Assembly (NCBI RefSeq): GCF_013201825.1
Contig: NZ_CP053836.1
Location: 930,001 to 994,000 of the forward strand
From: Halarcobacter ebronensis
Lineage (GTDB): Bacteria; Campylobacterota; Campylobacteria; Campylobacterales; Arcobacteraceae
Direction: 5' to 3'
DNA length: 64,000 bases
Both the position numbers and the translations under genes were made by a program. Positions 26,395 through 28,579 of this stretch are shown here, piece by piece; within the stretch, counting starts at the first letter, position 1; each line of letters begins with the position of its first letter. The notes beneath the pieces were generated by a model. It saw only the letters and a list, made by a program, of their open reading frames with translations, had not been told where the DNA came from and made no database searches.

Positions 26395-26472
26395 AAATAG
26401 ACCTATGAAGCCTATAAATTAGCTATTCGCGCTTTTAAAAAGTAACTAATCATAAACTTCATAGGTCTATTT
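26395..26472. repeat. 16-bp perfect inverted repeat with structured 46-nt loop
   Basis: AAATAGACCTATGAAG (26395-26410) and CTTCATAGGTCTATTT (26457-26472) are exact complements. Inside, ATTAG and CTAAT can pair around an inner loop containing TTCGCGC. It sits between the infA terminator and the stop of the convergent HTH gene. It is more elaborate than a simple terminator, so a small RNA or a repeat element is possible. Confidence 0.7.
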
Positions 26473-26473
26473 T

Positions 26474-26686
26474 TCACATAGCTCTATTTTTTGTTAAATC
26501 AATCTCATTTTCAATATGTTTTTTTTGTTCAATCATAAAATTTAGATGCTGTTTTAATAACTCTTTATCTCTATATGACTCAATAATAAACTCATAAAGT
26601 TTTGGTCTATTTTTTTTCCAATTGTGTAAAGTTGTTTTATTAACCTCTAAATCTTTTTCCAACTTTCTAAAACTCGGATAACTCAT
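26474..26686 (-). CDS. Small helix-turn-helix DNA-binding protein
   Basis: The 70-aa protein has an N-terminal helix-turn-helix-like stretch (FRKLEKDLEVNKTTLHNWKK, residues ~6-25) followed by a basic helix and a charged C-terminal helix that could dimerise. AAGGAAAAG stands before the ATG. Its own promoter (TTGACA, 17 bp, TACAAT on the minus strand) contains an operator-like half site in the spacer, pointing to autorepression. It lies divergent from the UDG-family gene, which has similar sites. Family name not recognised. Confidence 0.65.
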   Translation of the reverse strand: MSYPSFRKLEKDLEVNKTTLHNWKKNRPKLYEFIIESYRDKELLKQHLNFMIEQKKHIENEIDLTKNRAM

Positions 26687-26707
26687 TCTTTTCCTTTTGT
26701 GTTGATG

Positions 26708-26736
26708 ATTGTATCAATAATTTGTACATATGTCAA
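26708..26736 (-). promoter_or_regulatory. Promoter of the small HTH gene
   Basis: On the minus strand TTGACA (26736-26731), exactly 17 bases, then TACAAT (26713-26708), about 20 bases before the ATG. The operator arm 26715-26729 fills the spacer. Confidence 0.75.
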
Positions 26737-26801
26737 TATAAAATTATAGTAATGTACAAATTATTGGAACAAATTATTCCAAAAGTAGTTTTTTTGTACA
26801 A
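26715..26801. promoter_or_regulatory. Operator-like sites TTTGTACAT / ATGTACAAA / TTTGTACAA
   Basis: CAATAATTTGTACAT (26715-26729) and ATGTACAAATTATTG (26752-26766) are a perfect 15-bp inverted repeat. A third copy of the core, TTTGTACAA, lies at 26793-26801 over the likely -10 box of the UDG-family gene. TTGGAA/TTCCAA (about 26764-26781) adds a further dyad. The arrangement fits a dimeric repressor controlling both divergent genes. Confidence 0.65.
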
Positions 26802-26807
26802 TTTCGT

Positions 26808-27473
26808 ATGACAAAAGCAGTTAAAAGAGAGATTTTACATCATCTAAATTTTTTAAAGTCAATTGGATGTGACTATCACGAACAAATAGAATTTTATAAT
26901 AATGAATTAAACTCAAACAACTTACCAAACAGTCTTGATGAGTTAAAAACATTGGTAAACAATTGTTATTTGTGTGAGTTGTCAAAATCAAGAAAAAATG
27001 TTCTTTTTGGAGAAGGGAATAAAAATGCATCATTGATGTTTATTTCTGACGAACCAACAGCAACAGAAGATGAACTAAAGAGTCATTTTGTTGGTAAAAA
27101 CGGAGAGCAATTAGCAAAAATGATTGAAAATGTTCTACCTTTAAAAAAAGAGGATATATATATTACAAGTTTAGTTAAATGTAAAAGTAAAGATGGAATG
27201 AATGCATCTCATTTTAGTAGTTGTAGCTCATATTTATACAAAGAAATAGAGTTAGTCAATCCTAAATTGGTTGTAGCTTTAGGAGAAAAAGTTTATAGCT
27301 ATCTAAGTGCAGATAAAACCCCTTTTAATCAAGTTAGGGGTAAAATAATTAATTTTAAGAGTTTTGTTGTGTTACCAACTTTTAGTGTAAGTTATCTTTT
27401 AAGAAATCCATCACTAAAAAGAGAGGCATTTCATGATATGTTAAAAATCAAATCTATATTGGAGTCAAATTGA
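26808..27473 (+). CDS. Uracil-DNA glycosylase superfamily protein (family 4-like)
   Basis: The 221-aa protein resembles Fe-S family 4 UDGs. Cys53, Cys56, Cys125 and Cys139 have the spacing expected for the 4Fe-4S cluster. FISDEPTATEDELKSHFVGK stands where the family has GEAPGxxED...FVG, so the GEAPG active-site loop is changed to SDEPT. VVALGEKVYSYL and LPTFSVSYLL correspond to the later motifs; the family's final HPS is altered to TFSVSYLL. A repair or other DNA-binding role is likely, but activity is uncertain. No ribosome site precedes the ATG. Confidence 0.75.
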   Translation: MTKAVKREILHHLNFLKSIGCDYHEQIEFYNNELNSNNLPNSLDELKTLVNNCYLCELSKSRKNVLFGEGNKNASLMFISDEPTATEDELKSHFVGKNGEQLAKMIENVLPLKKEDIYITSLVKCKSKDGMNASHFSSCSSYLYKEIELVNPKLVVALGEKVYSYLSADKTPFNQVRGKIINFKSFVVLPTFSVSYLLRNPSLKREAFHDMLKIKSILESN

Positions 27474-28579
27474 AAAATTTACTATTTATTCTTTTATCTT
27501 GTTTTTTATTAATTGGATGTTCTGTAAAAAAAGAGGTTTCAGTTTCAAATAAAACTTATAATAAGGGACAATCAAATAGTTTTGAGAATGCAAGAAATAT
27601 AAATCCTTTTGAAAAGAGTGAAGTTCAAGAAGAGAGTATTATCTCAAATCTAAGCAGCGATACAAAAAGAATTGCAATAATTTATCCTTCAACTGTTGTT
27701 GGAAGATATGCAAAGTCTACAATGAGCACAATCAGTGCTTTTTTGATATTTAATAATACAAAATTCGAGTTAGAATCTTTTGATACCTATAATGAAAAAA
27801 GAGAGAATGTTATTACACAAGTTGAATCTTTAAAAGATAGAGGATTTGATAAAGTTGTAGCACTATTTACAAAAGATGGCTTTGATATTTTAAATACTAT
27901 GGGGGATATTCAAGGAGTTAAATTTTACTTTCCTTTGATAAATAAAAATGAAGTTATGACTTTCAATAGTAACTTTATTTTTGGTGGTATCTCTTATGAA
28001 AAGCAAGTTGCTTTATTGCAAAAACTATCAAGTGGAAAAAATAGTATGTTTTATGTAAAATCATATCTTGGTGATAAATTAAAAAAAATCTATGAGAATA
28101 GTTTTGCAAATCCTGGAGCAATAATAGAGATTGAAAGACAAAATAACAAATATAAAGATATTATGGAAGATGAAAGAATTGCTGGTAGTACAGTTGTTCT
28201 AAATACTCCAATAGTAAAAACATCAATAATCTTAACACAACTAACAGCTTATGAGGTTATGCCAGCTAAAGTTTTATCAACACAGTTAAACTATAACCCA
28301 CTTTTAATAAAATTAACCCAAGCAAAAGATAGAGAAAATTTCTATGTGGTTAGTTCTATAAATAAAGTTGATAGTTTTATAGAAGATTATAGTAATCTTT
28401 TAGGAGCAAATGTAGCTTATGAATGGGTAGATTATTCTACTTTAATTGGAGTAAACTATTTAATAAACGAAAATGAGTCATTGGTAATTAAAACTAAGAT
28501 TATAGATAATCAAGCCGATTATGAAGAGACTTTATATAAAAGTACAATTTATGGGTTTGAAAAAGTGCTTACAAATTAA
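27470..28579 (+). CDS. Periplasmic lipoprotein with a PBP-like fold
   Basis: The 369-aa protein starts with a lipoprotein signal, lipobox LIGC with Cys17. The body (RIAIIYPSTVVGRYAK, then alternating beta-alpha pattern) resembles type 1 periplasmic-binding-protein folds such as LpoA/LppC-type proteins, but I do not recognise a close family. The TTG start overlaps the UDG-family stop by 4 bases, with GGAG upstream, so the two are co-translated. Function unknown. Confidence 0.6.
   Translation: MKNLLFILLSCFLLIGCSVKKEVSVSNKTYNKGQSNSFENARNINPFEKSEVQEESIISNLSSDTKRIAIIYPSTVVGRYAKSTMSTISAFLIFNNTKFELESFDTYNEKRENVITQVESLKDRGFDKVVALFTKDGFDILNTMGDIQGVKFYFPLINKNEVMTFNSNFIFGGISYEKQVALLQKLSSGKNSMFYVKSYLGDKLKKIYENSFANPGAIIEIERQNNKYKDIMEDERIAGSTVVLNTPIVKTSIILTQLTAYEVMPAKVLSTQLNYNPLLIKLTQAKDRENFYVVSSINKVDSFIEDYSNLLGANVAYEWVDYSTLIGVNYLINENESLVIKTKIIDNQADYEETLYKSTIYGFEKVLTN

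Follow-up and report, generated by a model that had tools for sequence, protein, structure and literature searches.

A minimal helix-turn-helix protein and a conserved pair of predicted operators beside a uracil-DNA glycosylase-like gene in Arcobacteraceae

Results

The locus

The window analysed here is a 64,000-nucleotide stretch (positions 930001-994000) of the 3.17-Mb single-contig genome of Halarcobacter ebronensis. Its relatives are the Arcobacteraceae, and a search with a profile of the small helix-turn-helix (HTH) protein considered below also returns Poseidonibacter, Malaciobacter, Aliarcobacter and Arcobacter records. At the locus, a 70-aa HTH gene and a gene for a uracil-DNA glycosylase-like (UDG-like) protein are divergently oriented, and before the HTH gene in window coordinates lie ribosomal protein genes, secY, map and infA, with functions recognised by eye. 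The features are as follows (window coordinates).

26395 to 26472, no strand: long inverted repeat between infA and the HTH gene (arms 26395-26415 and 26452-26472)
26474 to 26686, minus strand: open reading frame of the 70-aa HTH protein, the proposed regulator
26708 to 26713, minus strand: -10 of the HTH promoter, TACAAT, from the promoter scan
26709 to 26729, no strand: predicted operator O1, TTGTATCAATAATTTGTACAT, between the HTH -35 and -10 and overlapping the -10
26731 to 26736, minus strand: -35 of the HTH promoter, TTGACA, from the promoter scan
26752 to 26772, no strand: predicted operator O2, ATGTACAAATTATTGGAACAA, just upstream of the UDG-like promoter
26794 to 26814, no strand: weak third copy from the repeat search, overlapping the UDG -10 and start codon
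26797 to 26802, plus strand: predicted -10 of the UDG-like gene, TACAAT, read from the sequence, 5 nt before the ATG
26808 to 27473, plus strand: UDG-like gene, a 221-aa family-4-like UDG homologue with an altered active site (PF03167, alignment to 1ui0)
27470 to 28579, plus strand: putative lipoprotein gene, 369 aa, TTG start, overlapping the UDG stop by 4 nt

The inverted repeat behind the HTH gene has 21-nt arms that are 90% complementary and a 36-nt loop, and is a possible two-way terminator; a terminator scan restricted to loops of 3-8 nt found none. On the other side, the putative lipoprotein has no Pfam match up to E 1. A secreted or lipoprotein-looking frame overlaps the UDG stop in all 34 family loci read, by 4 nt in 32 and by 7 nt in two, and the lipoprotein gene is likely to be in the same operon as the UDG-like gene; consequently, any control of the UDG-like gene would extend to it. 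In some outgroups, secreted-looking frames likewise overlap the UDG gene.

Two 21-bp predicted operators lie between the genes

A first-pass annotation had described a perfect dyad of 15-bp arms, one of them within the spacer of a consensus promoter of the HTH gene. Both elements are present. The arms lie at 26715-26729 and 26752-26766 with 22 nt between them, and a gapped dyad search gave this single occurrence in the window and none in 100 dinucleotide-preserving shuffles. The promoter reads TTGACA-17-TACAAT on the minus strand (26736-26708) with 11 of 12 consensus matches; the promoter scan as a whole returned 7 promoter-like sites against 4.0 expected, and the HTH promoter alone stands out. 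A repeat search without a preset unit recovered longer inverted arms of 21 nt (26709-26729 and 26752-26772, 90% complementary), together with three direct 21-nt copies starting at 26710, 26753 and 26795, spaced by 43 and 42. The true repeat unit is a 21-bp pseudo-palindrome that extends past each 15-bp arm, and the arms would thus be parts of two operators of one type, approximately TTGTWCM-N7-KGWACAA, which we call O1 and O2.

With transcription starts assumed from the -10 elements, the centre of O1 falls at about -18 of the HTH promoter, and that of O2 at about -47 from the predicted UDG start and about -61 from the predicted HTH start. Across the family, a permissive pattern for a TTGAC-type/-10 pair at 17-18 nt is found in 58 of 60 intergenic stretches with the HTH gene. 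The UDG -10 is conserved whether or not that gene is present. The 5 nt that separate the -10 from the ATG are too few for a ribosome-binding site, which makes a leaderless UDG-like mRNA probable in the window. A short UDG leader is common to most family loci read; g7 genomes, G081 for example, have a longer leader. Among published titles on Arcobacter transcription start sites or sigma factors, only one concerned Epsilonproteobacteria.

A third copy, TTTGTACAA, had been said to overlap the likely -10 of the UDG-like gene, and it does so (TACAAT, 26797-26802). As evidence for an operator it fails, since it mostly stays in genomes that lack the HTH gene: TTG-TANAAT-N4-7-ATGA persists in 28 of the 30 loci scanned without an adjoining HTH gene, including an unlinked UDG-like gene (G095). 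In a position weight matrix, the third copy of the window scores 2.9, against a minimum of 10.8 and a median of 22.1 for 122 operators. We accordingly rejected it as an operator, and it is probably a promoter plus start codon. The motif score at this position is slightly higher where the HTH gene is present (median 0.3, maximum 12.0, 54 loci) than where it is absent (median -4.3, maximum 8.4, 28 loci), a difference that speaks for a weak site and has no complete explanation.

The predicted operator pair goes with the HTH gene

A single-copy orthologue of the HTH protein (E<=1e-8, 62-93% identical) is found in 62 of 104 family genomes, and the UDG-like protein in 100 of the 104 (E<=1e-15). A pair of O1- and O2-type sites 41-43 bp apart is present in all 62 genomes with the HTH gene and at none of 40 UDG promoters without an adjoining one (39 genomes lacking the gene and one in which it is unlinked). 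Conservation of the dyad in relatives that keep both genes, on which the earlier proposal turned, is thus borne out. The distance is 42 bp in 51 of the 62, 43 bp in ten and 41 bp in one; pairing was sought within 38-47 bp (36-49 bp for G088), and the spacing in G002 was added by hand from a site search of unlimited distance. When the three best unpaired sites were taken with no distance limit, the same O1 and O2 were recovered in all 60 loci covered. Leave-one-out pair scores (sites 41-43 bp apart) have a minimum of 28.4 and a median of 42.8 over the 62 loci, against maxima of -1.7 (31 loci) and -5.7 (nine more) at UDG promoters without an adjoining HTH gene, and the pair score of the window was reached in none of 5000 two-base-block shuffles.

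Aligned across genomes, the operators read TTGT[A/T]C[A/C]-N7-GGAACAA or degenerate forms of it, and some genomes carry near-perfect palindromes, for example ATGTTCCAATAATTGGAACAA. In 30 non-redundant loci, the arms of both operators hold 1.34 bits per base and their centres 0.53-0.54, compared with 0.32 for the O1-O2 spacer beyond the -35 and 0.89 for the UDG -10 region.

In 60 of the 62 genomes, no more than 1 kb separates the HTH gene from the UDG-like gene. In G088 the start of the UDG-like frame is at a contig end (by eye), and G095 (74% complete) is the only unlinked case: its HTH gene, which carries three sites 42 bp apart (L212 1310-1901), is separated from the UDG-like gene and found close to a tRNA-Leu at the end of a contig, and its UDG-like promoter has no such site. 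Presence of the HTH gene is mixed within five genus codes (g1 10/16, g27 15/31, g34 5/6, g6 9/10, g7 7/8), so several gains or losses in the family are likely. G108 lacks the gene while the rest of its genus code has it; here the right half of the UDG promoter is kept and the O2 arm is lost.

Sites elsewhere in the genome lie in coding frames

In its own genome, with up to 3 mismatches, the motif matches 31 places, of which O1 and O2 alone fall outside open reading frames (ORFs); the other 29 are in ORFs of 191 aa or more. The exact pattern occurs in the 104 genomes at 31 places at the HTH locus (27 genomes) and at 20 places elsewhere, all 20 within ORFs. Because the motif is otherwise found only inside ORFs, this looks like a local circuit. 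A wider regulon was considered and set aside at these patterns, with which weaker sites would be missed. Controls with the backward pattern gave 7 matches against 43 rows in the own genome and none against the 20 off-locus places in the 104 genomes. The control counts are thus below those of the coding matches; each palindrome is counted twice, seven matches belong to one orthologous gene, and the excess is otherwise unexplained. That gene is an aminotransferase-like coding frame containing a perfect TTGTTCC-N7-GGAACAA in seven g27 genomes (L196-L202).

The HTH protein belongs to an uncurated family

The AlphaFold model of the HTH protein (mean pLDDT 94, pTM 0.64) consists of helices alone (residues 6-13, 17-26 and 28-69): two short helices followed by one of 42 residues, an arrangement with an HTH fold and no second domain in its 70 aa. 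The long C-terminal helix of the model suggests a coiled-coil dimer, the form that binding to a palindrome would call for. In an alignment of 33 sequences, 21 columns are invariant, dN/dS is 0.01-0.15 (six pairs), and the protein is better conserved than the adjoining UDG-like protein (in G083, for example, 70% versus 39%).

No Pfam or NCBIfam model matches the protein over its cut-off, weak matches to HTH families lying below; the family has no curated model. A PDB sequence search with the HTH profile gave no good structural match (best E 0.03), and structural comparisons of the model in Foldseek (best E 2.4) and VIA-align (best Z 4.3) were uninformative. Outside the family, the best match in 16 order-level genomes has E 7e-6 over 39 residues, and a short-pattern genome scan returned 37 loci, titled as Arcobacter and relatives or as unspecific Campylobacterota, one of them as a Helicobacter pylori assembly; searches of this kind leave room for distant relatives. 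A literature search returned no titles on an Arcobacter HTH operator or repressor, or on autoregulation of an Aliarcobacter regulator.

The UDG-like protein keeps its cysteines and has lost catalytic residues

The UDG-like protein passes PF03167 (92.6 bits, cut-off 24.3), scores below the NCBIfam TIGR00758 cut-off (115.2 versus 125.3 bits) and is homologous to Thermus thermophilus (Tth) UDGa (PDB 1ui0) over residues 43-203 (E 1.2e-27). The four cysteines and the E47 and F54 positions of the Thermus enzyme are kept; C53, C56, C125 and C139 are cysteine in all 64 aligned rows and are putative Fe-S cluster ligands. The active site differs. Mapped onto the Tth UDGa active-site residues named in PMC5387724, E41-G42 correspond to Asp81-Glu82, N80 to Ser121 and H155 to Ser193, and the N89 region is two residues shorter. 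With the H155S substitution in UDGa, k2 falls to 7.2e-5 per second from 2.3e-1, and k2/Km to 94 from 2.4e5 (PMC5387724, Table 1).

Motif 1, GE[AG]PG, is SDEPT in the window, and the full motif is found in none of the 53 family genomes read, a set that omits G023x and a Malaciobacter record as duplicates or possible duplicates. At the catalytic histidine position (H155), these 53 genomes have His in 10, Ser in 41, as in the window, and Glu in two; five of the Ser genomes carry a His one position earlier. The order-level outgroups read, 9 of the 16 UDG loci, have GE[AG]PG, Asn and His in 9/9. Nine of the 73 listed loci gave no UDG frame in the motif reading (G007, G011, G079, G086, G087 and G090-G093), and L050 was left out of alignment A2. 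The catalytic His and the bulk of motif 1 survive in G109 and G112, two genomes with the HTH gene, so the loss of the active site is a matter apart from the presence of that gene. The UDG-like protein remains under purifying selection (dN/dS 0.03-0.14, eight pairs). The genome also encodes a second PF03167 protein, whose motifs look family-1-like by eye.

These substitutions weaken the earlier description as a DNA-repair-type gene, if repair is meant in the catalytic sense, and most members of this family are probably misannotated when called uracil-DNA glycosylases; a glycosylase of altered specificity is possible. What is conserved is a UDG homologue that retains its Fe-S ligand positions and purifying selection and has lost catalytic residues. 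Published titles on Arcobacter UDG, UDG pseudoenzymes and Campylobacter family-4 UDG included none on this protein.

Discussion

We propose, with reasonable confidence on the comparative sequence evidence, that the HTH protein is a dedicated local regulator acting on two operators, which would repress its own gene and probably tune the divergent UDG-like/lipoprotein operon. An HTH dimer, formed via the long C-terminal helix, would probably bind both 21-bp operators, which, at a spacing of 42-43 bp or about four helical turns, would occupy the same face of the DNA. Occupancy of O1, between the -35 and -10 and over the -10, would repress the HTH gene, and pairing between O1 and O2 may tighten this self-repression. 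From O2, which abuts the UDG-like promoter on its upstream side, the protein would probably tune, and most likely repress, the divergent operon. As the HTH protein is too small to accommodate a ligand domain, the input to this regulation is likely to be simple homeostasis or an unseen partner protein. We infer binding, dimerisation and cooperativity of the HTH protein. Self-repression is the part we regard as highly probable; O1, at about -18, occupies a classical repressor position. Control of the UDG-like operon we rate only somewhat above an even chance. The first-pass annotation had joined the two, as a regulator that controls both itself and the UDG-like gene; the regulator/operator unit stands on the 62/62 versus 0/40 distribution, and for the control of the neighbour, which looks likely, the argument is that O2 abuts the -35 region at a conserved distance. 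Against it, 39 genomes lacking the HTH gene retain both the UDG-like gene and its -10, and this gene therefore does not need the regulator.

In an alternative arrangement, a pure autoregulator, both operators serve the HTH promoter alone and the UDG-like gene is a bystander sharing the intergenic stretch. Where the HTH gene is lost, O1 and O2 are lost too and the UDG -10 stays behind, and G095 keeps its set of operators with an HTH gene that is away from the UDG-like gene, although G095 is a single incomplete assembly. A bystander would not be expected from the close linkage of the two genes in nearly all genomes that have both, nor from the spacing: among 42 loci matched by the pattern, 39 place O2 exactly 42 bp from the UDG -10 (the other three have 41, 43 and 86 bp, with 19 further loci unmatched by the pattern), whereas the distance from O1 to the HTH start is variable. 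We consider this arrangement unlikely. The same fixed distance, with the O2 centre near -47 and a UDG promoter without a recognisable -35, would also suit a protein that activates the UDG-like operon in a class-II-like manner, following lambda CII-like logic, while repressing itself; indeed, an operator centred there would be as compatible with activation as with repression. However, the UDG promoters of genomes lacking the HTH gene show no gain of a -35 by eye, and the fold has no match to CII beyond noise (E 5 or worse), and we judge an activator to be a little less probable still than a bystander.

Chance, or a structural, terminator-like element, would be a conceivable source of the dyad itself, given the AT-rich region and the hairpin that its perfect arms could form. 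We give this almost no credence: pair scores separate loci with and without the HTH gene completely, and in relatives the 21-bp unit is preserved although changes in the arms do not follow hairpin pairing. For this minimal, uncurated family of HTH regulators in Arcobacteraceae, the preferred reading, a local regulator on two operators, provides a precise predicted operator and target; natural gene losses back the operator, and binding and control are directly testable.

Divergently transcribed, autoregulated local repressors are a general bacterial arrangement. The locus shares with them a small HTH gene, an operator over its own promoter and a second operator beside the divergent gene, but differs in having no visible ligand domain and a very strict 42-bp double operator. 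The locus had also been suggested to form a damage or mobile-element switch. For a damage switch we found no supporting evidence. A repressor near a repair-like gene recalls LexA and the SOS response as an idea only, and the half-sites bear a loose GTTC/GAAC likeness to that type; in contrast to LexA, the modelled 70-aa protein has no self-cleaving protease domain, and the own-genome matches at up to 3 mismatches include no further intergenic site that would point to a multi-gene regulon. LexA is not known from these bacteria. It is a long shot that the UDG-like protein, no longer a glycosylase, serves with its retained Fe-S ligands as a sensor or partner protein, with the HTH protein as the transcription arm of one redox- or DNA-state-responsive switch. 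The mobile-element proposal is not supported: the HTH protein has no PADLOC match and no PHROG match under E 0.01 (best E 0.017), and its neighbours between 20 and 34 kb in the window are ribosomal or housekeeping by eye. Small prophage regulators such as CylR2 and lambda CII are comparable in size, minimal HTH proteins of 66-82 aa being among the weak Foldseek matches; they differ in that no fold match is better than E 2.4 and that the genes around the present locus are housekeeping ones. HTH proteins of similar design, 60-66 aa long, occur in other Campylobacterota contigs, among them a 60-64-aa family of TLRNWRK-KPKLYE type in several Campylobacterota (L209 1030-1221, L210 911-1096, L016 1474-1653 and L019 832-1014), of which the two that were scanned fall under Pfam cut-offs.
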